DNA from: Candidatus Omnitrophota bacterium
Lineage (GTDB): Bacteria > Hinthialibacterota > Hinthialibacteria > Hinthialibacterales > JAKPRU01
Length of the DNA stretch: 16,351 nucleotides
Direction: 5' to 3'
Assembly: GCA_029570205.1 (NCBI GenBank)
Contig: JAKQSI010000099.1
Location: 1-16,351, forward strand
Shown here: positions 231-14,742 of the stretch, piece by piece
Position numbering within the stretch: the first letter of the stretch is position 1
How the letters are laid out: each line of letters begins with the position of its first letter
Notes under the pieces: model-generated
Databases searched by the model: none
Told to the model about the DNA's origin: nothing
Seen by the model: only the letters and a program-made list of their open reading frames with translations
Made by a program: the position numbers and the translations under genes

Positions 231-1568
231 ATGCCTTACATTCCGAACACGGATGACAACCGAAAGGCCATGCTTCAAACGCTCGGCCTCCATTCCGTGG
301 CGGACCTGTTTCGGATTATTCCCGAATCGTTCCGCCCGAAACGTTTCGATATCCCGCCGGGGAAATCCGAGTTTGAGGTTACCCAATGGCTGCGCCACCT
401 CGCCGGGAAGAATGCCACAGGCCTGGTTTGTTTCCTGGGGGGCGGGTACTACGACCATTTCATCCCGGCGGCGGTGGATGCTGTCCTGCGCCGGGGAGAG
501 TTTTACACCGCATACACTCCTTACCAACCGGAAGTGTCCCAGGGAACGCTCCAGGTTGCCTACGAATACCAGACCTCTATCTGCCGCCTGCTCGAAATGG
601 AGGTAGCGAACGCCTCCATGTACGACGGCGGAACCGCGCTCTACGAGGCCGCGCTGATGGCGCTTCGCATCACCGGTCGCAACAAGATCCTGGTGGATGG
701 CGGTGTCAGCCCGATTTACCGCAAAATCCTTTACTGCTACACAAAGAACCTGTCTATCCAGTTCCACGAGATTACCCCGGTACACGGCCAATCCCACCGG
801 GAGGAGATTGCAAAATATCTCGACGACCGGACTGCCGCGATTATTCTCCAAAATCCCAATTTCTTCGGAGCCATCGACGATTTTACCGACATCGTCAATC
901 AGGCACATGCGGTCGGCGCGCTGGCGGTTCTCTCCGTGTACCCGATATCGCTCGGTCTTTTGAAAACCCCCGGCGAGATGAATATCGACATCGCTACAGG
1001 CGAGGGGCAGAGCCTTGGATTACCCTTGTCCTTCGGGGGGCCGTATCTGGGATTCATGGCTACCACAATGGAATATGTGCGCAAAATGCCGGGTCGCCTC
1101 GTCGGCGAGACCGTGGATCGTGAGGGGAAACGCGGTTTTGTATTGACCCTTCAGGCACGGGAACAGCATATTCGTCGGGAGAAAGCTACCTCCAATATCT
1201 GTACCAACCATGCTCTTTGCGCCCTCGCGGCTCAGACTTATATGACCCTGCTCGGCAAGCAGGGACTGGTACAGGTTGCCCGTGTCTGCGCGGATCGCGC
1301 GGAATATGCGCGGGAACGTCTCGGCGCAATCCCCGGCGTCGCCGTGAAACGCTCGGCGCCGACTTTTAATGAATTTATTATTGAGCTGCCCCGCGATGCG
1401 GCGGAGGTAGTCAATCAGATGATCGAACGCGGGTTCGCCGCCGGGTTCCCGCTTGGAAGGTATTACGAAGGCATGGAGAAATATCTACTCGTTGCCGTTA
1501 CAGAGAAAAGAACAAAGGAAGAAATTGGGCAGTTCGCCGAGGCATTGGAGGCTGTGGTATGTCACTGA
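231..1568 (+). CDS. gcvPA: Glycine dehydrogenase (aminomethyl-transferring) subunit 1, P-protein alpha
   Basis: One of the two subunits of the split P-protein. It decarboxylates glycine with pyridoxal phosphate and passes the aminomethyl group to lipoyl-GcvH in the cytoplasm. The 445 residues match the usual length of about 440-450. Family hallmarks are the N-terminal [26 protein letters not shown] near residue 65, [14 protein letters not shown] near 95 and [17 protein letters not shown] near 130. The C-terminal half carries [11 protein letters not shown] and the segment [19 protein letters not shown]. The subunit belongs to the fold-type I PLP family, but the PLP lysine is in the partner GcvPB. 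The ATG at 231 is preceded by GGGAG at 218-222 with an 8-base gap. The 3' end overlaps gcvPB by 10 bases, so the two are translationally coupled. No glycine riboswitch or promoter is visible between the repeat array and the start, so transcription probably enters from upstream. Confidence 0.97.
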
Positions 1569-3001
1569 TCTTTGAACAAAGCGTCCCCGGTCGTCGTGGA
1601 GCTCGTCTCCCCGAAAGCGATGTTCCCGCACAGGCGCACCTGCCGGAACAATACCTTCGAGCGCATCCGGCCGAATTGCCGGAGGTGTCGGAGGCCGAGG
1701 CCATTCGTCATTTTACATTACTTTCGCAACGCAATTTCGCCGTAGACCGCACTTTCTACCCGCTCGGTTCCTGTACCATGAAATACAATCCGAAAGTGTG
1801 TGAGGAGATTGCCCGGTTGGACGGGTTTTCGGCGCTTCATCCGCTTCTGCCGCAGCTGCGGGGCGGCGGCCTGCTCACCCAAGGTGCGCTACAAGTTATT
1901 TATGAAACCGAACGCCTGCTGTGTGAAATTACCGGCATGGCGGAGTTTACCATGCAGCCCATGGCCGGTGCGCACGGCGAACTCACCGGTGTGATGCTGA
2001 TTGCGGCATACCATCGCAAACAAGGGAACCGCAAGACCAAGGTCATCATCCCCGATTCCGCCCATGGGACTAATCCGGCCAGCGCCGCCATTGCCGGTTA
2101 CGCTGTGGTCAGCGTCCCCAGCGACAGAAATGGCCTGATGGACAGGAAGGAGTTCGAACGAGTACTCGATCCGGAAGTGGCCGCTGTAATGCTGACCTGC
2201 CCGAATACACTTGGCCTGTTCAATCCGAACCTGCGTACCATGGCCGAGCGCGTTCACGCTGTGGGCGGCCTGATGTATTGCGACGGCGCGAATCTCAACG
2301 CGATTCTCGGTAAGTGCCGTCCGGGAGACATCGGGTTCGATGTAGTCCATGTCAATCTGCACAAAACCTTCGGCGCTCCCCATGGGGGCGGCGGGCCGGG
2401 CGCAGGGCCGGTAGGAGTCTCGGAACAACTGCGCGATTTCCTTCCGATATCTCGGGTAGTCAAACGAAATGATGGAACATTCGCGCTGGAGTATGACCGC
2501 CCCGACTCCATTGGCTATGTCGCGCCGTTTTATGGGAATTTTGGAATCCTCCTTCGCGCGTATACGTATATCCTGCTGCTGGGCAAAGAAGGATTGATCC
2601 GTGTGAGCGAAAATGCGGTACTGAACGCGAATTACATTATGCACCGCCTGAAAGACTACTACGATCTTCCATACGATCGTTCCTGTATGCACGAGTGTGT
2701 CTTTTCCGCATCCCGCCAGATGAAGAACGGTGTTCATGCCATGGATATCGCAAAGGCGTTAATCGACGAGGGTTTTCATCCCCCGACGGTTTATTTTCCC
2801 CTGATTGTAAAGGAAGCGCTGATGATCGAGCCTACGGAGACGGAATCCAAGGAGACATTAGATGCTTTCTGTGACGGGATGATCCGCATCGCCGAGCGTG
2901 CGGAACAAGACCCCGCCGATTTCGCAACTCGGCCCCGGTCAACTCCTGTCTCTCGTTTGGATGAGGTAGCCGCCGCGCGGAAGGCGAAGGTGCGGGCCTG
3001 A
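1559..3001 (+). CDS. gcvPB: Glycine dehydrogenase (aminomethyl-transferring) subunit 2, P-protein beta
   Basis: This is the PLP-binding subunit of the split glycine decarboxylase and forms the active P-protein with GcvPA. At 480 residues it has normal family length. Diagnostic segments are [16 protein letters not shown] (about 64-79), [12 protein letters not shown], the [13 protein letters not shown] segment, [10 protein letters not shown], and the PLP lysine in [20 protein letters not shown], which is Lys269 by codon position. The C-terminal part has the usual PTVYFPLIV and [14 protein letters not shown] motifs. The ATG at 1559 lies inside the end of gcvPA, with GGAG at 1547-1550 eight bases upstream. 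The reading frame is intact and all expected blocks are present, so the gene appears functional. gcvT and gcvH, usually upstream of this pair, are outside the window or elsewhere. Confidence 0.97.
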
Positions 3002-3037: not shown

Positions 3038-4222
3038 TTAAAACGTGAAACTTGGGAGGAAGATTTGGCGGTAGTCTTCGGCGGCGAAGCGGTCCGTCAT
3101 GCCGGCAAGATAATCGGCTACGGTTCGCATGACGCCATCGCGCTCAATCCGGCTTTGACTACTGCGAGGTAGATGATCGGAATGGTCCCGGTAATGTTCA
3201 AATAGCCGTGTCATAATCCGGACACTTTTCTGGGTTGCGCGAAGCACATCGGGATGCCGGTACAGGCGTTCATGAAGGAATCGCTTCAGCTGCCGGTTCA
3301 GCTCGGTCATCTCCGCGCTGTATCCGATGAGCGGCCGGCTGTCGTCGAGATTGTGAGGAGAAGAAACACCTGCTTCGCGAATCCGCCGGATGCTCTCATT
3401 GGCCACATCGGTGACCTGCGCATTGATCAGGCGCACGACGGCGGACGAGCGTTGCCGTTCCGGTTCCATGCCGGGGAAATCCTGAACAACCCCGTTGACA
3501 ATCTGTCGCCAGAGCGGAAGCGACTCCAGTTCCTCGGATGCGATCAGTTGCGACTTGATGCCGTCATCGCAGTCATGGCTGTTATAGGCGATCTCATCGG
3601 CAACATCGACCACCTGTGCCTCCAGGGAGAGGACGGGGGCAATTCCCTTCCCTTCACCCTCGAAAGGTTTTTTGCGTTTGAGAATACCCCGGCGAACCTC
3701 GGCGGTGAGATTCAGTCCATTGAACCGGGGATACCGTTCCTCCAGGATATCCACGACACGGAGCGCCTGCGCATTGTGTTCGAATCCCCCGTGATTTTCC
3801 ATAAGTTCATTCAGCACATGCTCGCCCGAATGACCGAACGGGGTATGTCCGAGGTCATGGGCCAGGGCGATGGCCTCGATCAAGTCCTCATTGAGTTTCA
3901 GAACTCGTCCGAGTGTCCGCGCAATCTGGGCAACCTCCAGGCTGTGTGTGAGGCGAGTGCGATAATAATCGCCGACATGGGTGACAAATACCTGGGTTTT
4001 GTATTCCAGCCGTCGAAAAGCCGCGCAATGGATAACCCGGTCCTTGTCACGCTGGAATGCGGTGCGATAGGGGTGTTCCGTTTCCGGGAAACGACGTCCG
4101 TAGGTTTCTCTTGCCCGGCAGGCATAAGGCGCCAGCCAGACCTTTTCCCGCTCCTCCTGCTCCTGGCGGGACAGAAGATCTGCCGAAATGTCCGTAGCAA
4201 GTAACTTTTTATCCTGGGACAT
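3038..4222 (-). CDS. dgt: dGTP triphosphohydrolase-like HD-domain protein
   Basis: Predicted cytoplasmic dNTP triphosphohydrolase that converts dGTP or other dNTPs to deoxynucleoside plus triphosphate, affecting nucleotide pools and replication fidelity. The 394 residues fit the shorter type-2 dGTPase-like group rather than the enterobacterial enzyme of about 500. The HD metal site is complete: His93 in RLTHSLEVAQ, His122-Asp123 in LAHDLGHTPFGHSGE, and an Asp in VADEIAYNSHD near 209. Other family blocks are YRTAFQRDKDRVIHCAAFRR (52-71), the segment around residues 145-155 containing GGFEHNAQALR, and LNLTAEVRRGILK. The ATG at 4222 has only a weak Shine-Dalgarno, but family alignment and the N-terminal charged helix favour it. 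A candidate promoter lies in the divergent gap shared with the pilin gene. The 3' end converges on gcvPB. Substrate preference cannot be read from sequence. Confidence 0.95.
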   Translation of the reverse strand: MSQDKKLLATDISADLLSRQEQEEREKVWLAPYACRARETYGRRFPETEHPYRTAFQRDKDRVIHCAAFRRLEYKTQVFVTHVGDYYRTRLTHSLEVAQIARTLGRVLKLNEDLIEAIALAHDLGHTPFGHSGEHVLNELMENHGGFEHNAQALRVVDILEERYPRFNGLNLTAEVRRGILKRKKPFEGEGKGIAPVLSLEAQVVDVADEIAYNSHDCDDGIKSQLIASEELESLPLWRQIVNGVVQDFPGMEPERQRSSAVVRLINAQVTDVANESIRRIREAGVSSPHNLDDSRPLIGYSAEMTELNRQLKRFLHERLYRHPDVLRATQKSVRIMTRLFEHYRDHSDHLPRSSQSRIERDGVMRTVADYLAGMTDRFAAEDYRQIFLPSFTF

Positions 4223-4302: not shown

Positions 4303-4902
4303 ATGAGACAGAAAAGTGGATTTACACTGATTGAGTTGTTGATTGTTGTGGCGATTATCGGCATTCTGGCGGCAATTGCGGTGCCGAATTTTATGAACGC
4401 GCGAGTCCGTGCGCAGGTCGCCCGGACTTATGGGGATTTGAAGGCGCTGCACCTGGCGGTTCAAAGTTACCTGGTGGATCAAGGCACACTACCGCCGAAT
4501 TCCAGTCATTTGACCGTACACCTGAAATGGCTGACAACGCCGATGGCCTATATTGCCGGTGTCGGATTCAAGGATGTGTTCAAGGCCAAACAGGGCAATA
4601 CGGGCAATGACCAGGAAAGTTATTTGTATTTCTCCTATTTGTATGACCAGGAGAATCCGGGCAATTCCTGGATCGGGCAGGTGAATCTGCCGCAGTTTTC
4701 CACCAAGGGGTTTTGTTTGAGCAGCTGGGGACCGGATCGCAACCAAAGCGCCATCGAGTGGGTGTATATCCTTCGTCGCCAAGGCAACCCGGATGCCGGG
4801 AATGACTTCGTTTACAGTCCATCGAATGGGGCAATCAGCGGAGGCGGTATAGGGGTGTGGGGAGGGGATGTACCGGGAGTCAGCGCCACGCTGGGAGGAT
4901 GA
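4303..4902 (+). CDS. Type IV pilin-like / type II secretion pseudopilin (GspG-like) protein
   Basis: A 199-residue protein with a textbook class III signal. A short basic leader MRQKSG is cut between Gly6 and Phe7 by prepilin peptidase, then FTLIELLIVVAIIGILAAIA forms the hydrophobic helix with Glu at position +5. The following amphipathic helix (NFMNARVRAQVARTYGDLKA) and YLVDQGTLPPNS are typical of GspG-like proteins of PVC/FCB and candidate-phylum bacteria. The C-terminal region is aromatic and Gly-rich (SSWGPDRNQ, then FVYSPSNGAISGGGIGVWGGD) and resembles the calcium-binding tail position of GspG, but the site residues cannot be confirmed. GAGG at 4291-4294 sits 8 bases before the ATG. No other pilus or secretion genes adjoin it, so it may be a minor or orphan pseudopilin. 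Such genes are often multicopy in these genomes (recollection). Confidence 0.9.
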   Translation: MRQKSGFTLIELLIVVAIIGILAAIAVPNFMNARVRAQVARTYGDLKALHLAVQSYLVDQGTLPPNSSHLTVHLKWLTTPMAYIAGVGFKDVFKAKQGNTGNDQESYLYFSYLYDQENPGNSWIGQVNLPQFSTKGFCLSSWGPDRNQSAIEWVYILRRQGNPDAGNDFVYSPSNGAISGGGIGVWGGDVPGVSATLGG

Positions 4903-5127: not shown

Positions 5128-5133
5128 ATGGAA

Positions 5134-6402
5134 ATGTCGAATGCGGACAAATTGGCAATCCACGGCGGCAGCCCGGTTTGCGCGGAGCGGATACCCGAAT
5201 CGCTCCATGGAGTGATGGAGATCGGTGAACCGGAGAAGCGGGCGGTAATGAATGTTTTGGAGAAGAAACGGGTGTTTCGCTTTTATCCGGAGGGTCTGGA
5301 GGATTCGGAGGCGGCGGCTCTGGAACGAAAATACGCGGAACGTCTCGGCGTTCGTCACACACTGGCGGTCAGTTCGGGCACCGGTGCGCTCGTGGCGGGA
5401 TTTGCGGGACTTGGCCTGGAACCGGGGGATGAGGTGATTATCCCGGCGTATACATTTATTGCGACACCGTTCTCCATCCTGGCCAACTGGCTGGTGCCGG
5501 TGCTGTGTGAGATCGACGCCACCATGACCATGGACACCGAACACCTTCGACAGTGCATCACTCCCCGCACGCGGGCGATCTGTCCGGTCCACATGCGCGG
5601 GTTCCCATGCAACATGGACGAGATTATGAAAATCGCCGAGGAACACAACTTGGCGGTTTTAGAGGATGTGGCCCAGGCGAACGGCGGAAGTTACAAAGGC
5701 AAACCGCTGGGGACATTCGGTGAGGTGGGATGTTTCAGCTTCCAGATGTATAAGATCATCACCGCCGGGGAAGGCGGCATGGTGGTGATGAACGATGACA
5801 GGATCTTTTCCCGGGCGCGGACACAACAGGATTGCGCCAGCCGATATTGGCTGAATACGCAGGATGAGATTTACGACGTTTATGGAGAGAATTATCGAAT
5901 CTGCGAGCTTTGCGCGGCGTTGGGGCTGGCGCAATACGAGCGGCTGGATAGCCTGCTGGACCAATTCCGTCACTGCAAGAAGAGAATCCTGGCGGGACTT
6001 GAAGGGGTAAACGGGATCGAACTTGCGCCCAGTCATGATCCCGAGGGTGATGTTGGAATTGCCGTCATGTTTTATACGGAGAGCATCGAGAAATCCCGCG
6101 AGTTCGCCCAAGCCCTGGATGCGGAAGGAATTCCCTGCGGGACCATGTATAATAAGGGCATACCCGACCGGCACATTTTCTACTATTGGCCTTTCGTGAA
6201 TCAGCTGCCGCCCGACAGTCGAATCAGCCCGTGGAACTGCGGCGGGAAGAAATCGGATGTCCGATACAGCCCCGATATGTGCCCCCGGACCCTGGATTAC
6301 CTGGGCAGGGCCATCACGTTGAATATCCACCAGAAGCTGACGGACAGCCATTGCGATTGGATGGTGGAAGCCGTGCGCAAGGTGGCGAAAGCGTTGTTTT
6401 GA
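5134..6402 (+). CDS. DegT/DnrJ/EryC1/StrS-family PLP-dependent aminotransferase
   Basis: A 422-residue fold-type I PLP enzyme of the family that aminates keto-sugars (nucleotide-linked or inositol-like) for envelope glycans or secondary metabolites. It opens with LAIHGGSPV. Further family features are RFYPEG, AVSSGTGALVAGFAGLGLEPGDEVIIPAYTFIAT for the PLP phosphate and substrate pocket, LEDVAQANGGSYKGKPLGTFG (Asp stacking with PLP), and the Schiff-base lysine in CFSFQMYKIITAGEGGMVV (Lys207 counted from ATG 5134). ENYRICELCAALGLAQ matches the conserved N-Y-R-E/L segment. Length is typical to slightly long, with a C-terminal extension (HIFYYWPFVN to the end) resembling the inosose/3-amino-sugar branch more than ArnB or WecE. 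The exact substrate is not predictable. There is no dehydratase or nucleotidyltransferase nearby. The downstream GT-C gene on the same strand, 213 bases away, suggests a role in surface glycan assembly. Confidence 0.93.
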   Translation: MSNADKLAIHGGSPVCAERIPESLHGVMEIGEPEKRAVMNVLEKKRVFRFYPEGLEDSEAAALERKYAERLGVRHTLAVSSGTGALVAGFAGLGLEPGDEVIIPAYTFIATPFSILANWLVPVLCEIDATMTMDTEHLRQCITPRTRAICPVHMRGFPCNMDEIMKIAEEHNLAVLEDVAQANGGSYKGKPLGTFGEVGCFSFQMYKIITAGEGGMVVMNDDRIFSRARTQQDCASRYWLNTQDEIYDVYGENYRICELCAALGLAQYERLDSLLDQFRHCKKRILAGLEGVNGIELAPSHDPEGDVGIAVMFYTESIEKSREFAQALDAEGIPCGTMYNKGIPDRHIFYYWPFVNQLPPDSRISPWNCGGKKSDVRYSPDMCPRTLDYLGRAITLNIHQKLTDSHCDWMVEAVRKVAKALF

Positions 6403-6615: not shown

Positions 6616-7878
6616 ATGTTCAGGCAACCTTTCCGGGTTCGTTGGGGGCTTCGCTTTTGCTGTGAACACCCTTCCTGCATCACAGCCGGTTTTGTCCTGC
6701 TTATTCGATTGCCGTTTTTCTGGGCGGTTGTCACGAAGCCCGAATGTGCTTTGATGCCGGATTCCGTGACCTATATTGCTATAGCAGATAATCTTACCGA
6801 TCCCTCCATTCATCGAACACCGGGATACCCTTTATTTCTAGCTGCAATTCGATGCGTTTCATATTCTCCGATTTCTGTCGCGATGGTTCAGTCATTTTTG
6901 GCCGCCGTGACTGGGATCCTCGTGACCTGCATCGCCTATCGACTGTCTCCGTCAGGGAATGGATCCGCCCGACTTGCGGGAATTCTCGCCGGGATTTTCT
7001 TTGCCGCCGATGCGGTCTCCGCCGGCTATTCATGCCTGGTGCTGACCGAAAGTCTATGTGCGCTTGTCTTGACAACGACAGTCGCACTATTCGTTCTTTC
7101 TCCCGGATCACCGGGACAGATCATCGGAGTTGGGATCCTGAACGGATTGAATGCCTTGATTCGACCGGTTGCGATGCTATGCGTGATTGCACAGTTGCCG
7201 TACGGATATGTGAAGATACGGAGTCGCCGTTACGGCCTTGCATTGCTGATCGCTTTTTCTTTCCTTCTTCCCGGTATATGGATCCTTCGAAACGGACTAT
7301 CGGCAGGAGTTTATACACTTTCGGATATTGCGATTGTGAATCTCTATTTTTACCGTGCCGCGGCCATTGTAGCCGAGTTGAAACAACTTCCCTTTGAAGA
7401 AGTGCAACAATCAATGCGCGAGGAATGGAATCGGGAATTAACGGAAACCTCTTTAACACAGACTGAACAATTACAACGAATACGCAGCCGCGCAATTACA
7501 ATTATATATCAGCACCCGGATTTGGCCATGAAACATGCGGCAATCGGTCTGGTGAAAATGTTGTTCGGTCCGGGCCGTGAGTTATATCTCCGGTTCTTTC
7601 ATTCCGTTCCTCCGCTATTCTTGACACTTCTTCTTGCTTACTCTCTAGTTCACATTGTGGTAGTGTATCTGTGTGCCGGGATGTATTTTTATAGAAGCAA
7701 GCGGCCGGAAAAGTGGTTGTTTTTTTTGACTATTCTTTACTTTTGCCTGTTTTCCATGGGACCGGAGGCGTATTCTCGATTCCGGGTTCCGATTATGCCG
7801 CTTTTTTGCATCACGGCCGGACTCGGGATTCCGTTCAGAACCGAGCGAATGGGCGATAAGATAGCCGAAGAAGGATAA
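6616..7878 (+). CDS. GT-C fold membrane glycosyltransferase, family 39-like (ArnT/PMT-type)
   Basis: A 420-residue polytopic membrane protein with about ten hydrophobic segments. After the first segment (around 23-40) the loop reads MPDSVTYIAIADNL then HRTPGYPLFLAAI. The acidic residue (Asp49) plus Tyr and the R-x-P-G-Y-P-L-F signature are typical of bacterial PMT_2/ArnT-like enzymes, which take sugar from a polyprenyl-phosphate donor at the periplasmic face. A hydrophilic stretch near 255-315 (ELKQLPFEEVQQ to IYQHPDLAMKHA) matches the usual loop of the group, and the last helices carry GPEAYSRFRVPIMPLF. The start is uncertain: the ATG at 6616 has AGGA twelve bases upstream, and a shorter protein starting near residue 47 would lose the first helix. 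The gene looks more AT-rich than its neighbours. The 213 bases before it show no clear promoter. Acceptor and sugar are unknown. Confidence 0.88.
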   Translation: MFRQPFRVRWGLRFCCEHPSCITAGFVLLIRLPFFWAVVTKPECALMPDSVTYIAIADNLTDPSIHRTPGYPLFLAAIRCVSYSPISVAMVQSFLAAVTGILVTCIAYRLSPSGNGSARLAGILAGIFFAADAVSAGYSCLVLTESLCALVLTTTVALFVLSPGSPGQIIGVGILNGLNALIRPVAMLCVIAQLPYGYVKIRSRRYGLALLIAFSFLLPGIWILRNGLSAGVYTLSDIAIVNLYFYRAAAIVAELKQLPFEEVQQSMREEWNRELTETSLTQTEQLQRIRSRAITIIYQHPDLAMKHAAIGLVKMLFGPGRELYLRFFHSVPPLFLTLLLAYSLVHIVVVYLCAGMYFYRSKRPEKWLFFLTILYFCLFSMGPEAYSRFRVPIMPLFCITAGLGIPFRTERMGDKIAEEG

Positions 7879-8229: not shown

Positions 8230-11200
8230 TCAAGGAATTCGAATGCGGCGGACCTTGTGGTCATACAGGTCCGTGACAAGAAGAATGTTGCCCGGGGCCG
8301 GGCCGACTTTTCCCTCGCGAACCGCAATTCCGAGCGGCATTCGAAGCGGCTCGCCATCGGCATCCTGTCTCCATTCTCCCAGGGGATTCCCTTCCCTGTC
8401 GAAAGATAAGACCCGGCCACCGAGAGGATCTGTCAGACACACGGTTCCATCGGATACGCAGACAAGATAAGATTCGACCCCACGGTTGGGTTCCGTGGTC
8501 AATTGGACCGGCCAACCGGCCTTAGGCTGCCAGATACGGTTGAACACCTGCACCCGACTGTTGCGGGTATCGACCACAAAAACATCCCCATCCGCATTGA
8601 CATCAATCCCGATCGGTTCATTAAACTCGCCATCCGCGATTCCTGGCTGGTCGGCAGGATTGCCGATTTTGCGAATCAAGTCTCCTTTCGGGCTGAAGAC
8701 TTTGACAACGTGATGGCCGGTATCGGTGACATAAATGATATCGGTATGGCGGTCGATGGCGATTCCACGCGGGCCGTAGAACTCTCCCTGGATCAGATTC
8801 CGGTACACGCCGCCGGTATCAAACACCTGGATACGGTGATTCCAAGTGTCCAGCACATACACCTGATCGTTGCGATCGGTCGCTACATCCATCGGTTCCT
8901 CAAACTGGCCGATGTCCGCCCCCTGCTGCCCGATCTGCCCGATATATTTGCCTTCGGGGTCAAAAACTTGCAGGCGGTAATTGCGTGTATCGGTAACATA
9001 CACGCGGTTCTTTGAATCCAGGCAGAGTCCGCGAGGTTCCTGGAACTGACCGTCGGCAAATCCGGGACCACCTTGAAACATGGAGGCTCCGGGTTCAGGC
9101 TCGGCAAGGGGAGAGGCGGTGGGAGTTTCGGCAGCTGTCACGCCGCGCAGGGCATTCAAATTCTTGCGAACTGCGTAAATGAAGGTGTGGCTGGTTTCGG
9201 GACCGGAATCGAACGCGGCAACCAGGTCCAGAAGATTCCCCCATGAGTCCCACCGCTGACGGCATCCGGGGGATACCTCAAGCTCCTGCCGACCATAGAT
9301 GATGTAATCGACATCATATTTGCCGAGCAGCCTGGTGAACTCATCCGGTTGATTCGTGCTATAGATGCGATCGACATCCTGTTTTCGGGGCATGGTTTCA
9401 TCGGCGTGCAGGCGTTCACCAACATGATGCGCCCAACCCAGAACGGTCGGGCAACCGGTGTTGGTTGAGAACATGCAGAACTCGCGATACTGACGGTCAT
9501 ACCCATGGGCTTCCAGAATCACCGGAACACCTTCGATGGCATACCGGATAAACTGCATGGCCCGGTATTCATCCGGTTTACAGGTATTCATATAAGCCAT
9601 ACCGTCGAGTGTGGGCACAAATCCTTTCCGGTCGTTTGTATCGGGAGCCAGGGTAATCGAAAATCCGCCCGCCACGGGGAACACGACAGATGCCAGCAGA
9701 AGCAACACCGTGATAAAAGCCCAGCCAGACCGACAGCAACGGCGCAGGACCCGCGCCGTCTGACCGCAGACTTTGAGACGAAGTTCCCGCCACAGAAGGC
9801 AAGCCGCGATTGCGCCGAATATGCAAAGGTATATCCAAGCCTGAAGATAGAACTTGAAGATTGTGTTGTAGCGGTGCATCGGCTCGGACCAGATTTCTTT
9901 GAGGTAGACAAACTCGCAGCCGAACAGAATGCCGAGTCCAAGGATTCCCAGAATGTGGGCAAATCGCTCATCGGCCTCCCGTTTTCCGAACAGAGCAAAA
10001 GCCGCCGACAGAACAAGAAAAGGAAGCAGAAATGTGGCGGCGCGGTAATCGGAGGGCATCGACCAGCCTTCATAGTGTTTCTGCGGCGCGGGATATCCCA
10101 GCGGGTTGGTTCTGTTGACATACAAAGCAAGCGCGAACACCACAGCGGAGAACAGCACGATCGCTGCCAGGCGTTTCGGGCGAAAATCCGTCAATCCCCT
10201 CGGAAAGACCAGACGCCATAAGAGGAATGTCACAATCGGCCAGAACAGAATACCGAAAAAGGCCAGAAGAGCGCTGAGCGGGGTGTTTCCTTCGGTGACC
10301 CAGTGCAAGCTGGTGACCCGTGCCACGAAATGATGATGAAACGGCAGGAAGAGCAGCCACGCCAGGAAAATTGTGACAATGAACGGCAAAACAAGGTCCC
10401 ACACAAGGGCAGAAAGCCCGCGCGGGGTGAGCCACGATCCGATTTCGATTCGTCTGTGTACGAAGGGAGAACATGCTTTGAAACGCAGGAACACCACGAG
10501 CGCCAACGCAATCGCCAGCGCGGGAAAATCCCAGGTGTTAGTGCAAATGACCGTTCCAAGGACAAGAGAAAACCAGAGCAAGATTCTCCAGTCGGGTGCG
10601 GAAACAGTATGGACGGACACGGACGACGCACAGACGGGCACGGACGATGTGAGAGGCCCCTTTCGGAAAAATGCAAGGAGTAGCCCCAGGGCCGCGACGG
10701 TGATCGGCATGACGATCAAATGCGGGTGGAAGTCGGCGAAATAGAAGGTCCAGCACGGGAACTCATTCGCGACTGTGCCTTTGATGACATCATGCCCGCT
10801 CACCCAGAAGTAGTGATTTGCATGGAAATTAAGAAACTGAAGAGCCTCCGGGGGATACCGGTCCACAAGTCCCACGGCGGAGAGGAGCAGGTTGGCGGTG
10901 ATTTTCAAAGCGAATGGGAGGTAGGTAAACCAGTGAATCAGGCTGGGCAAAAATCCGTTCGCCGTGGGATCTCCCTCGACCCATTGCCGATAACTCTGGA
11001 TGAATCGGCCATAGGAAACCAGATGCCCGGAAAACATCACCAGGTATCCGCCCAGTATGCCGGCCTTCCAGCTGCGACACAGGTTGTAAATCAATGAGAA
11101 AACGCCGAGACCCAGGAGCGCCGGAACGATGGTCACCCCCAAATTGAACAGGTAGGCAGGCGGGATACCCAGAAATCGGCCGAGCAGGGCGTATATAACG

Positions 11201-14082
11201 TAGCCGTAATAGTAGTAATTGATCGTTTCTCCGGAAATCCAGGGGTCGATCGGTGGAAAAACCGAGGTCCGGTAGATCGCGTTAATGAAGGAGAACTCCA
11301 TGGGTTTCTCCCCCCAGAAGATATCCGGGTGATGTGCCCGAACGCATAAGAAAATCCACCAGGAGATAAGAAAGAAAATCTCCATGCCGAAAATGAGCAG
11401 CCGGCGCGCGCGGAGAAACTCGCGGATCTCGGCCAGTCTGCGGCACGCGACGGTGACAGCCAATCCGGCAAGAAGAAGGAACACGCAAAGCAACTGCCCC
11501 TGGGACAAAGCAAACACACGCACGGAGGCCAGAAGCCAGGAAATCCATGCGAAAAGAATGAGGCCGACGATTTTTGAGAGTCCATACCCGCGATCCGTAA
11601 GCGCGGAACAGCGACCAAACAGGAAAATAAATCCGAAAACTCCGAGAACCTGAATGCCCAGATACCAGGTGAGCGCGGGCCATTTAACACTCGGCTCCAT
11701 GAGAAACCGTCCGGCCCGCGCGCAAAGGATTTGTTCGAAGGTGACTTTCTCCAACCAGTCGGGGGGGCGGTCAATGGCGGAGCGCATCTGGGCGGCATTC
11801 AGATGTTTCACATTTCGGAAAATAACCACTTTGGGATGGTCATAAACCGCGAAAGATTCATCCTCCAGGTCGCTGGAAAGTTCCCATCGCAGATCATAAA
11901 GAGAGTAATGCGGCCATTCCCCGGCACGAGTATTCTGCCGGTACAAGCGAGGTTGGCCGAACCCGATGGCCGGTTCGCTGGTGATGGTTGCCGCGAGTTC
12001 GAAACCCAACTGCTCAGTGAAAAGCAGTTTGAAAAAGCGGTTGATGAGGGAGAACTTATTCGGCAGCCGGAAGGTGGTCCCGCAGGCACGTTTGGACGGC
12101 AAGACAAGGTAATCCGCCTTGGAAAGCATAGCGACGGTGTTATCCAGTCCGGCATCGCCTAAAGTGTGCAGTTCCAGGTCTCCCGCTTTTGGAATGCCGG
12201 GGAGCCATTCATCCCAGGATTGGGAAAGGATGCGTTTTGCCTGAGCATCATGCGCTCGGAGCCAGTCGGCGGCCTGGTAATAGGTGTGGGGACGGAGATA
12301 AACCTGAAGATAGGCTATACCGTAAACCGTGCCACAGAGAAGACAAAGAACAATCCCGATAGCCCCGATCCGTTTTGCGCCACGAATTGCCCATAGAGGC
12401 CAGTTCGCCAAAGCGGGGGAGTACATCGCCGGACGGATGCGCGTCATGGCGACCAGGAGCCGCGCACCGAACAGCAACAAAAACGGAACGATGGTAATCA
12501 GATATCGGGGGAACTTGCACAGAAATGTGCTATACAGGAAGAAATTCGGAAGAACCCACGCAAGCAACAGGATATCCGAGGCGTTCCGGTATTTCACCGC
12601 CGTATAGACAGCGAAACAGGCTCCGGCAATCGCAAAGAACGCTGTAACCCAATCCAGCGACGGATAGAACAGGTTGTCGAGACTGTAGAAGATCGGCATT
12701 GTGCCGACATACTGCTGCGTGTAGACAGCAGGTGTGTCTCCGGTGACGATGAGACCGTGCTGAGTGGTGACATCGCGCGCGAATGATGCGGCATCCAGGA
12801 AGGCGAGCGGTTCTGCGACAAACAAGGCTGCCATCCCAACCGGTATGGAGATCAGCAGATAAATCCAGGGCCGATAGACCCCCAACACGGACGCTCCCCA
12901 TCGTCCATGGCCATGCCACCAACTTCGGCAATACAGCAGGAAAACCGAAATTAGAAATAGAATGAGGCAGATAAATGCAAATCCAATAATATGAGATAGA
13001 TAAAAATCGCGGAATGAGGCAAGTGTGGCATGAAACGGTGGCGATATGGAAGAGGCTGCCCGGAAGAAATGAAGCAGGACCAGGCCGCTCAAGAGTAGCC
13101 AGACACTATGAATCCATCGCCCGGTTTGCCCGAATTCTTCTTTCCCCCAAGTTCCGATGGCATGGGCGAGGAGAAGAATGCCGGGCAGCGTGATAGCGCT
13201 CCACTTGGTCCCGATTGCGAATCCGGTTGCAACCGCCCCCAGGAGATAATATGGGAGTCGAGGACTCAGCGCGACTCGGTGAAAGCTGAAAATGGCCACG
13301 GCAATCCAGAATGCCAGGATGATATCCACCGTAGCGAAATGGGAGAGCTGCACATGAAGCACGGCCACCGCAAGAAACGCTGCCGCGAGAAGGCCGGTCC
13401 ACCGGCCGTAGGCATCTTTGCCGATAAGATACACCACCAGCAGCGTGAGAGAACCGAATAAAGCAGTAACAAATCGCCCGACCAGAATGGTCCCCAGCCC
13501 CCAGTTCGGCGGGATGTCTGTCACATTGACCAGTGAACGCGGGATTCTTTCCAGAAGGAACCAGCCGAGAAGGGGAAGAACAATGCAGAGCGGGAGGATT
13601 TTCAGGTACAGGCCGGGTTTGGAACCAGCGTCACGCATGGACCGGCAGAATTGAACGATTACAAATAGAAGACCAATCAGGAGAAGGCGATACACAGCCG
13701 GGCTGACCATGCGCGACCAATCCGGTGCGGTCATCGCCTGAATGACCTTATAGCAATAAAAAGGGAAAGAGCCATAATTGTAATTCACGGGCTTGAGAGG
13801 CGGGCCATCTCCCTGCCGGGAGGTGCGGGATTCCAAAAGTTGACAACGCCAATATCGTTTCCAGTAGTCCCAGTGGGATTCTCCCTCTTCGCGCGGGGAT
13901 ACGGGTTCGAGATAGATACTATCGACACAATTGCCGACATGACGTTCATCGGGATGAGGAGTTGAGCCGCCGCCGTGAATGGCCCAGTCGAGCCCCGTAT
14001 ACCGCAATGCGACCCCGGTTGCAAACACGGCCAGAAGTAAAAAAGCAATGACAAGACGTTGTGTAGTGGATTCCATTTCCAT
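8230..14082 (-). CDS. Giant trimodular membrane protein: GT39-type module, DUF2298/Chlor_Arch_YYY module, NHL beta-propeller
   Basis: A 1950-residue uninterrupted frame. Module 1 (about 1-790) is a GT-C/PMT-like domain. It has a first helix, then the catalytic-type loop HPDERH (Asp45-Glu46), NYNYGSFPFYCYK near 98, GRFVTALFGSLTLLVVYL near 207, HVQLSHFATVDIILAFW and GFAIGTKWSA, followed by more helices and a soluble part. Module 2 (about 795-1640) is a full DUF2298/YYY domain: EKPMEFSFINAI near 925, ETINYYYYGY (YYYY at 956-959), NEFPCWTFYFADFHPHLIVM, TNTWDFPA, HRYNTIFKFYLQAW, and the soluble tail with VILEAHGYDRQYREF, TGCPTVLGWAHHVGER and KYDVDYIIYG. Module 3 (about 1670-1950) has five to six NHL repeats such as VYVTDTRNYRLQVF and VFVVDTRNSRVQVF. 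The family is of unknown function and the GT-C resemblance suggests transfer of a lipid-linked sugar. A second in-frame ATG lies at residue 3. An extended -10 lies 29 bases upstream. Confidence 0.92.
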   Translation of the reverse strand: MEMESTTQRLVIAFLLLAVFATGVALRYTGLDWAIHGGGSTPHPDERHVGNCVDSIYLEPVSPREEGESHWDYWKRYWRCQLLESRTSRQGDGPPLKPVNYNYGSFPFYCYKVIQAMTAPDWSRMVSPAVYRLLLIGLLFVIVQFCRSMRDAGSKPGLYLKILPLCIVLPLLGWFLLERIPRSLVNVTDIPPNWGLGTILVGRFVTALFGSLTLLVVYLIGKDAYGRWTGLLAAAFLAVAVLHVQLSHFATVDIILAFWIAVAIFSFHRVALSPRLPYYLLGAVATGFAIGTKWSAITLPGILLLAHAIGTWGKEEFGQTGRWIHSVWLLLSGLVLLHFFRAASSISPPFHATLASFRDFYLSHIIGFAFICLILFLISVFLLYCRSWWHGHGRWGASVLGVYRPWIYLLISIPVGMAALFVAEPLAFLDAASFARDVTTQHGLIVTGDTPAVYTQQYVGTMPIFYSLDNLFYPSLDWVTAFFAIAGACFAVYTAVKYRNASDILLLAWVLPNFFLYSTFLCKFPRYLITIVPFLLLFGARLLVAMTRIRPAMYSPALANWPLWAIRGAKRIGAIGIVLCLLCGTVYGIAYLQVYLRPHTYYQAADWLRAHDAQAKRILSQSWDEWLPGIPKAGDLELHTLGDAGLDNTVAMLSKADYLVLPSKRACGTTFRLPNKFSLINRFFKLLFTEQLGFELAATITSEPAIGFGQPRLYRQNTRAGEWPHYSLYDLRWELSSDLEDESFAVYDHPKVVIFRNVKHLNAAQMRSAIDRPPDWLEKVTFEQILCARAGRFLMEPSVKWPALTWYLGIQVLGVFGFIFLFGRCSALTDRGYGLSKIVGLILFAWISWLLASVRVFALSQGQLLCVFLLLAGLAVTVACRRLAEIREFLRARRLLIFGMEIFFLISWWIFLCVRAHHPDIFWGEKPMEFSFINAIYRTSVFPPIDPWISGETINYYYYGYVIYALLGRFLGIPPAYLFNLGVTIVPALLGLGVFSLIYNLCRSWKAGILGGYLVMFSGHLVSYGRFIQSYRQWVEGDPTANGFLPSLIHWFTYLPFALKITANLLLSAVGLVDRYPPEALQFLNFHANHYFWVSGHDVIKGTVANEFPCWTFYFADFHPHLIVMPITVAALGLLLAFFRKGPLTSSVPVCASSVSVHTVSAPDWRILLWFSLVLGTVICTNTWDFPALAIALALVVFLRFKACSPFVHRRIEIGSWLTPRGLSALVWDLVLPFIVTIFLAWLLFLPFHHHFVARVTSLHWVTEGNTPLSALLAFFGILFWPIVTFLLWRLVFPRGLTDFRPKRLAAIVLFSAVVFALALYVNRTNPLGYPAPQKHYEGWSMPSDYRAATFLLPFLVLSAAFALFGKREADERFAHILGILGLGILFGCEFVYLKEIWSEPMHRYNTIFKFYLQAWIYLCIFGAIAACLLWRELRLKVCGQTARVLRRCCRSGWAFITVLLLLASVVFPVAGGFSITLAPDTNDRKGFVPTLDGMAYMNTCKPDEYRAMQFIRYAIEGVPVILEAHGYDRQYREFCMFSTNTGCPTVLGWAHHVGERLHADETMPRKQDVDRIYSTNQPDEFTRLLGKYDVDYIIYGRQELEVSPGCRQRWDSWGNLLDLVAAFDSGPETSHTFIYAVRKNLNALRGVTAAETPTASPLAEPEPGASMFQGGPGFADGQFQEPRGLCLDSKNRVYVTDTRNYRLQVFDPEGKYIGQIGQQGADIGQFEEPMDVATDRNDQVYVLDTWNHRIQVFDTGGVYRNLIQGEFYGPRGIAIDRHTDIIYVTDTGHHVVKVFSPKGDLIRKIGNPADQPGIADGEFNEPIGIDVNADGDVFVVDTRNSRVQVFNRIWQPKAGWPVQLTTEPNRGVESYLVCVSDGTVCLTDPLGGRVLSFDREGNPLGEWRQDADGEPLRMPLGIAVREGKVGPAPGNILLVTDLYDHKVRRIRIP
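10609..10655 (-). repeat. In-frame GTCCGTG-type degenerate repeat inside the giant gene
   Basis: On the minus strand this stretch reads as successive GTCCGTG, GTCTGTG, GTCCGTG and GTCCATA heptamers with 3-4 base joints. It encodes a Ser/Val-rich loop (SSVPVCASSVSVHTVS, about residues 1143-1158) between two membrane helices of the YYY module. The composition differs from the flanking helices and looks like a simple-repeat insertion that preserved the frame. Confidence 0.55.
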
Positions 14083-14126: not shown

Positions 14127-14177
14127 GGAAAGGTAAGAAAGGCAAGAAAGGGAAGAAAAGGACAAAAGAACAAGAAG
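14127..14177 (+). repeat. Polypurine tract with 9-bp tandem units
   Basis: On the plus strand three successive 9-mers GAAAGGTAA, GAAAGGCAA and GAAAGGGAA (14128-14154) differ only at position 7. They are followed by looser purine-rich units to about 14177. The minus-strand pyrimidine run supplies the U-rich tail of the bactofilin terminator and lies just upstream of the giant gene's -10. The near mirror-like purine run could also form triplex DNA (inference). Confidence 0.6.
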
Positions 14178-14211
14178 CGCACAAAACATGTTTTTCTGTC
14201 TTGTGCGCCTC
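14150..14211 (-). terminator. Rho-independent terminator of the bactofilin gene
   Basis: Arms at 14197-14211 and 14174-14188 form a 15-bp stem on the minus strand with two G-U wobbles and an 8-base loop (14189-14196). The core GCGCACAA/TTGTGCGC pairs perfectly. The minus-strand tail is T-rich (TTGTTCTTTTGTC). The stem begins 33 bases after the bactofilin stop. The plus strand has no T-run after the stem, so it acts on the minus strand. Confidence 0.75.
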
Positions 14212-14244: not shown

Positions 14245-14742
14245 TCATCCGGTGGACTTGGTGTCTTCTTCTTTCACAGGGCGTTTGGAGGCATCCCCCA
14301 CACTAGATCGTCGCTCCGCGGGCTGGACATCGGCTTTGCCGACATACACAACGCCTTCCTCGATTTTGAGTTTGGAGGCCTGAATATCTCCGAACAGTTC
14401 GGCGGCGCTTCGAAGGTCAATCACATCCTTGGCGGTGATGTTGCCGTTGACTTTCCCCTCGACAATACCGCTTCCGACTTTAATTTCGGCTTTTACGCGG
14501 CCGGTTTTTCCGATGATGAGATATCCATCGGTGGCAATATCGCCCTCAAAGGTTCCTTCAATTTTGAGAGTGTTTTTAAATTTGAGAGTGCCCTTAAACT
14601 GGGTGTCCTCGCCCAAAGTGGTGTAGGCTTGCTCATCGCGGGGACGAGGCGAAGGGACAGTGGGAGAGGCCGGGGTCGGCGGCTGAGCGACTGATTGGGT
14701 GGAAGGGAAACTTTTCTCGCGATCACTACGCAATATGTCCAC
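14245..14742 (-). CDS. Bactofilin-type polymer-forming cytoskeletal protein (DUF583)
   Basis: A 165-residue bactofilin. Such proteins self-assemble without nucleotide into filaments at the membrane and organise cell-wall or polar structures. The central region, about 46-140, is the right-handed beta-helix with six-residue periodicity: FKGTLKFKNTLKIEGTFEGDI, LIIGKTGRVKAEIKVGSGIVEGKVNGNI, DLRSAAELFGDIQASKLKIEEGVVYVGKADV. Proline-rich disordered tails flank it (QPPTPASPTVPSPRP and a charged C-terminus), the usual layout. The start is GTG at 14742, preceded by a GGGGG Shine-Dalgarno (14753-14757) with a 10-base gap. A candidate promoter and a leader with alternative hairpins lie upstream, and a strong terminator lies downstream, so it is monocistronic. 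The usual partner, an M23 peptidase, is absent here. The divergent neighbour is a coiled-coil protein. Confidence 0.93.
   Translation of the reverse strand: MDILRSDREKSFPSTQSVAQPPTPASPTVPSPRPRDEQAYTTLGEDTQFKGTLKFKNTLKIEGTFEGDIATDGYLIIGKTGRVKAEIKVGSGIVEGKVNGNITAKDVIDLRSAAELFGDIQASKLKIEEGVVYVGKADVQPAERRSSVGDASKRPVKEEDTKSTG

Follow-up and report, generated by a model that had tools for sequence, protein, structure and literature searches.

A membrane protein joining a GT39-like module, a DUF2298/YYY module, and an NHL propeller: a candidate subunit of an extracytoplasmic glycosylation system

The window, by which we mean the whole stretch of DNA analyzed here (16,351 nucleotides), is one entire contig of a draft genome whose 131 contigs total 4.39 Mb. 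From its left end, it carries glycine dehydrogenase as two subunit genes (231-3001, forward strand) that overlap by 10 bases (1559-1568), an HD-domain dGTPase-like gene (3038-4222, reverse strand), a pilin-like gene with an N-terminal methylation motif (4303-4902), and a gene for a DegT/DnrJ/EryC1-type sugar aminotransferase (5128-6402, forward strand). In a relative (G004, locus L036), the fusion gene described below is immediately followed by a further DegT gene and by one resembling GDP-mannose dehydratase. The next gene in the window (6616-7878, forward strand) encodes a 420-residue membrane protein with no Pfam or NCBIfam match worth naming; its start (PDSVTY ... RTPGYPLFLA) resembles that of a further GT-C type glycosyltransferase. 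Convergent to it is the gene on which we focus, an open reading frame on the reverse strand (8230-14082) that begins with ATG, contains no internal stops, and encodes 1,950 residues. A 15-pair terminator-like hairpin with a T-rich tail (14174-14211, reverse strand) separates this gene from a bactofilin gene upstream (14245-14742), so the two genes probably form separate transcripts. Bactofilin was rejected as an operon partner, given this hairpin and the presence of a DNA glycosylase gene in its place in other genera of the group.

The fusion protein consists of a GT39/PMT-like GT-C module (module 1, residues 1-790, 11713-14082), a YYY/DUF2298 module (module 2, residues 803-1603, 9274-11676), and an NHL beta-propeller (residues 1661-1949, 8236-9102), all features being on the reverse strand. 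The preliminary description had predicted these three domains in one chain, and the matches to PF02366/PF13231, PF10060/TIGR03662, and PF01436 all exceeded their curated cut-offs. We consider it vanishingly improbable that the chain is an assembly artefact or the product of a lost stop codon, and this reading is already refuted because independent full-length copies exist. A contig scan with the 1,950-residue protein as query returned two near-identical loci and nothing more, and a same-genus copy was 91% identical across all 1,950 residues. Within the window's phylum, eight genomes had the same chain at full length, and five further complete copies came from another phylum. No relatives were found among viral contigs.

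Pfam assigned module 1 to PMT (PF02366, 45.2 bits against a cut-off of 22.7) and PMT_2 (PF13231, 44.2 bits against 26.1), both at approximately residues 199-331, and did not assign STT3. When its profile was searched against the PDB, it matched AglB (E = 1.2e-7), PMT1 (1.7e-7), and STT3A (9e-5), and PMT2 and PMT4 were also matched. By these profile matches, module 1 is surely a GT-C enzyme of the PMT/AglB/STT3 superfamily. Hydropathy counted 14 transmembrane helices, which we read as ~13 because an odd number alone fits both the charge pattern of the second half and known GT-C proteins. The C-terminal domain of the module (residues 591-790) is predicted to be external. Several loop motifs were strongly conserved across 60 GT39 modules. 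HPDE (residues 43-46, 13945-13956), the presumed catalytic acid site in the first external loop, was 98-100% conserved, with its DE pair present in every module. NYNYG (residues 100-104, 13771-13785) ends the same loop and has an invariant Y103 and G104, and KFPRY (residues 523-527, 12502-12516) lies in an external loop with K, R, and Y invariant or nearly so. The full set of near-invariant positions comprised R27, HPDE, Y103-G104, R203, H248, K293, R526-Y527, and H749-P750. Module 1 thus resembles the GT39/PMT family (PF02366, PF13231; PMT1/2, AglB, STT3) in being GT-C by profile and in its acidic DE motif after the first transmembrane helix, but it differs in forming its own subfamily, whose members in the loci seen were either joined to YYY or adjacent to it.

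Module 2 scored 428.6 bits for TIGR03662 (NCBIfam cut-off 300.25, residues 803-1603) and 286.2 bits for PF10060 (Pfam cut-off 27.8, residues 843-1417). By score and motifs, it is a member of this family (Chlor_Arch_YYY, DUF2298), differing in that it is here a fused paralogue of what we call clade A, placed behind a GT39 module and ahead of a propeller. It has ~16 transmembrane helices by estimate. The EKPM motif (residues 925-928, 11299-11310) sits in the first external loop of the YYY core, with E925 conserved at 97-100% and M928 at 83-97%, and is followed by NYYYYG (residues 955-960, 11203-11220), in which Y956, Y958, and G960 were conserved at 91-100%. Across both YYY clades, E925, M928, Y956-Y958, and G960 were 83-100% conserved. 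The second large external loop carries EFP...D-x-H-x-H (residues 1107-1121, 10720-10764), where E1107, P1109, and H1119 were invariant and D1117 and H1121 reached 92-100%, and a late external loop carries R-x-NT-x-FK (residues 1404-1411, 9850-9873), with R1404, N1406, F1409, and K1410 invariant. The module closes with a soluble C-terminal domain (residues 1472-1605, 9268-9669), predicted to be external, in which G1543, H1553, R1557, R1566, and E1600 were conserved. HPDE, NYYYYG, and EKPM had been described earlier as intact; all three were present and conserved across the family, and by this conservation they are family invariants rather than chance.

No solved relative of YYY was matched in the PDB by sequence, and a structure model of module 2, for which the input was its own sequence and one 90% identical relative, had a pLDDT of only 36.5 and was set aside. 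The profiles of modules 1 and 2 were nonetheless colinear over 326 columns (hhalign probability 67.7%, P = 4.9e-5), against 0.1% for three column-shuffled controls and 2.2% for a reversed profile. Among the stretches paired in this alignment are the second external loop (HFATVD against HPHLIVMP) and the helix after it (GTKWSA against NTWDFP). Inspection further suggests that NYNYG (module 1) may occupy the same place before the next helix as NYYYYG (module 2). We regard the idea that module 2 is a second, divergent GT-C module as moderately supported. The literature on DUF2298, TIGR03662, and GT-C proteins with NHL yielded nothing on function and no characterized family member.

Topology was estimated from hydropathy and charge. 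In module 2, we counted 30 K/R in 128 inside residues and 16 in 237 outside residues (p = 1e-5), the inside and outside segments having been set by hand from helix alternation. Because of this positive-inside bias, the YYY tail and the propeller were placed outside. The same reasoning puts EKPM, NYYYYG, E1107-H1121, and R1404-K1410 in predicted extracytoplasmic positions. The propeller would accordingly share a side with the catalytic loops, and the earlier view of it as a real part of the machine is supported. We conclude that the chain holds two outward-facing modules, of which the first is surely and the second probably GT-C, with the propeller over them.

To place this protein among its relatives, we tracked the YYY family across genomes. 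TIGR03662 was found in all 14 genomes of the window's phylum, all 8 of a second small phylum (that of genome G090), and 107 of 151 in a large phylum (that of G073), which we take to be Chloroflexota from the family name Chlor_Arch_YYY. In a broad sample weighted to relatives, 39 of 386 genomes contained it. Both PF10060 and TIGR03662 also matched Haloferax volcanii and Methanosarcina acetivorans in control searches. A Halarchaeum sp. CBA1220 plasmid showed a partial match to the C-terminal part of YYY near the end of its record (L149 1139-1732; NZ_CP054708.1 601207-601800); this match has no gene in the PLSDB table, probably because the gene crosses the origin.

Among the loci fetched, the large phylum contributed 32 complete GT39-YYY chains without a propeller, and other groups contributed 6. 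Of complete GT39-YYY-NHL chains, 8 came from the window's phylum and 5 from that of G090. These counts indicate that the GT39-YYY fusion is ordinary and that the propeller end marks two small phyla. The fusion of GT39 to YYY, which the preliminary description had presented as new, is therefore a known form and the usual one in the large phylum, and the three-part protein is a variant of it. The three-domain order is not unique to this genome either. The joined GT39-YYY pair is widespread in several bacterial phyla, and no characterization of it turned up in the literature surveyed. By contrast, the proposed joint function of GT39 and YYY gained support, as the two are fused in dozens of genomes and encoded as adjacent separate genes in others (G011, G228, G252, and G021). 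Some large-phylum chains were longer still: in G073, G214, G246, G165, and G238 (loci L048, L080, L099, L100, and L109), chains of 2,300-2,800 residues combine GT39 with two YYY copies, the second copies falling in clade A but apart from the first.

A tree of 112 YYY domains separated clade A (fused to GT39, 59 domains) from clade B (free, 53 domains) with a support of 0.982, and the YYY domain of the window grouped in clade A. The only unfused members of clade A were in G011, where GT39 and YYY-NHL are neighboring genes, and in G021, where one gene lies beside GT39. We refer to the two paralogues as YYY-A and YYY-B. Both were present in most genomes, and the ancient split between them argues that they have different jobs.

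The propeller matched PF01436 at 107.5 bits, with NHL repeats from residue 1680 on and four repeats passing the cut-off singly. An AlphaFold2 model of residues 1405-1950 had pLDDT values mostly between 75 and 92 over the propeller, and this model aligned with the NHL domains of TRIM71/TRIM3 over about 261 residues (Z = 34.4, rmsd 2.5-2.8). On this model, the propeller is a six-bladed NHL fold, the same as in TRIM71/TRIM3 and in the extracellular PknD of Mycobacterium (Z = 29.7). However, the likeness is one of fold alone, and the ligands of those proteins are uninformative about the ligand here.

Propellers of the same kind were fused to GT39-YYY-A, to YYY-B (G009, G012, and G013), and to TIGR03663 proteins (G000, G090, G100, and G101), and they were encoded as separate genes beside YYY-B or TIGR03663 in G077, G374, and G502. 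The separate propellers begin with a short basic or polar stretch and one hydrophobic helix, as expected of a putative membrane anchor with the propeller outside. The profile in our first propeller search included several of its own targets, so the search was rerun with sequences from the window's phylum only. With this own-phylum profile, the top two matches in G077, G374, and G502 (29, 15, and 25 hits, respectively) were the propellers beside YYY-B. By this test, the YYY-linked propellers are a recognizable, system-specific subfamily that occurs in cis and in trans across phyla, and their association with one partner in both forms is a Rosetta-stone pattern. G077, G374, and G502 are small genomes with 42-60 NHL matches each, some in chains of 3,000-5,000 residues.

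This pattern bears on whether the propeller was acquired by chance, as a generic add-on for protein-protein contact or structure, with no role in a glycan system. Such an origin would be in line with the abundance of NHL in several genomes, including those three, and with the very different ligands that NHL propellers bind in solved structures. Still, we regard it as very improbable, because a chance add-on would not set the best-matching propellers beside YYY in three NHL-rich genomes, nor would it yield one recognizable subfamily in cis and in trans across phyla. In a tree of 23 propellers, the fused ones did not all group together, indicating that the fusion was probably gained or lost more than once. 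In G009, a member of the window's class, the GT39-YYY chain (L041) has no propeller, yet one YYY-B copy (L075) does, so the propeller seems to have moved.

The genes around these loci added a further frequent component. In the large phylum, the usual order was GT39-YYY-A, YYY-B, and then a TIGR03663-related protein, and in the G090 phylum it was TIGR03663-NHL, YYY-B, and GT39-YYY-A-NHL. YYY-B lay on the same strand within 1.5 kb of the fusion at 23 of 33 large-phylum loci, at 4 of 7 from the G090 phylum, and at 0 of 12 from the window's phylum, fractions that are not unbiased since the loci were chosen from hit lists rather than at random. Single-linkage clustering of neighbors mixed TIGR03663 proteins with propeller-only proteins through their shared NHL repeats, and 20 cluster members were checked with profiles. 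TIGR03663 was the best family for all 18 GT-type members tested. Eight of these scored about 177-311 bits; the other ten, from the large phylum, scored 44-187 bits, with one above the 126-bit cut-off and no other family matched. Two TIGR03663 proteins (L113 7620-9557 and L124 1147-3174) have an N-terminal Cys4 zinc ribbon (MADTMKCSKCGSENPKDNKFCDSCG) before the first membrane helix, and this ribbon is probably cytoplasmic.

The preliminary description had cast module 1 as the TIGR03663 partner, an identification that we rejected. TIGR03663 gave no match to module 1 at E <= 1 (NCBIfam), compared with about 177-311 bits for true members. In this genome TIGR03663 is a protein of its own, and elsewhere it has its own gene next to the fusion. 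Although distinct in this way, TIGR03663 is a frequent neighbor, and here as in other genomes it has an NHL propeller of the same type: the TIGR03663 protein of the window's genome, 1,075 residues long, also ends in one. It is encoded on a different contig (C86) from the fusion (C60) and from YYY-B (763-766 residues, C52), so that any co-action of the three in this genome would be assigned by homology.

NCBIfam names TIGR03663 "flippase activity-associated protein Agl23," and this frequent partnership raises a different account of YYY, as a non-catalytic membrane partner of GT39/Agl23 that moves or presents lipid-linked glycans, like a flippase or scaffold, and leaves module 1 alone catalytic. 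A study of Agl22 and Agl23 in Haloarcula hispanica, as far as its citations in PMC10384203 and PMC9943897 describe it, concerns the synthesis and utilization of lipid-linked intermediates, which would suit this account, as would the failure of YYY to match a PDB relative by sequence. However, YYY aligns with the GT39 profile, and the invariant polar residues of its external loops (E925, E1107, D1117, H1119, R1404, N1406, and K1410) resemble those of an active site. We therefore consider a purely non-catalytic YYY rather unlikely. The earlier proposal of two active sites is borne out only as two sets of conserved GT-C-like loop residues, whereas catalysis by YYY is a step that we infer.

The loci of the large phylum also have sugar-assembly genes nearby, namely GT4, epimerase, and methyltransferase genes. 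These could fit a complex that acts as an en-bloc ligase or polymerase, passing a finished lipid-linked oligosaccharide to a protein or polymer in the manner of an oligosaccharyltransferase or O-antigen ligase, and the best PDB matches of module 1 are not PMT1/2/4 alone but also STT3A and AglB, an archaeal oligosaccharyltransferase. Yet Pfam places module 1 in PMT/PMT_2 and not in STT3, and PMT enzymes use single-sugar polyprenyl-phosphate donors. Transfer en bloc is thus decidedly unlikely in our estimation.

Our preferred reading, which we hold with about even confidence for and against, is that the fused protein is a subunit of a multi-part extracytoplasmic glycosylation complex that uses polyprenyl-phosphate sugars, with the propeller recruiting an acceptor or a partner. 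For module 1, the sugar donor would be a polyprenyl-phosphate carrier at the outer face of the cytoplasmic membrane, and YYY-A would be a probable second GT-C module with external catalytic loops of its own, having arisen by duplication from the free-standing paralogue YYY-B, which was retained alongside. A TIGR03663 (Agl23-like) protein would be the usual third partner. A GT2 gene directly upstream in G374 is in line with this reading. Measured against a multi-component transmembrane system of GT-A, flippase, and GT-C, whose cluster would include a GT2 polyprenyl-phosphate sugar synthase and a flippase, G374 alone had such a GT2 gene upstream, and no flippase gene was identified at the loci. 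The external propeller would serve in recognition or docking, keeping the acceptor (a glycan or a protein) or the partner subunits close to where transfer takes place. The authors of a review of GT-C glycosylation systems propose that these enzymes depend on a domain that binds the acceptor or on a distinct partner that does so (PMC8035078), and propellers that occur both in cis and in trans fit this idea. The plan would match that proposed for GT-C proteins with external carbohydrate-binding domains, such as AftD and YfhO (PMC8035078), but here an NHL propeller is what has been added, and the chain joins two GT-C-like modules.

More broadly, and more tentatively, these proteins may belong to a widespread and unrecognized envelope-glycosylation complex of four GT-C-type modules, GT39, YYY-A, YYY-B, and TIGR03663/Agl23, together with a dedicated external NHL propeller that selects the acceptor, the parts shuffling between cis and trans from phylum to phylum. 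By family name and archaeal matches, the complex would extend into archaea. We put this wider proposal forward as a possibility that is somewhat doubtful as a whole. The part most worth following is the conserved system in which both YYY paralogues occur with TIGR03663 and a dedicated propeller. DUF2298/YYY proteins are large and conserved and have no assigned function, and many large-phylum genomes keep the two paralogues next to each other. The record of fusion and fission links YYY with a GT39 enzyme, with TIGR03663/Agl23, and with a single subfamily of propellers. With these ties, DUF2298 becomes a testable hypothesis, that of a glycan machine which works outside the cytoplasm and has a propeller for recognition, and the occurrence of the same domain both fused and free would offer a natural test of the acceptor-recognition idea for GT-C enzymes (PMC8035078).
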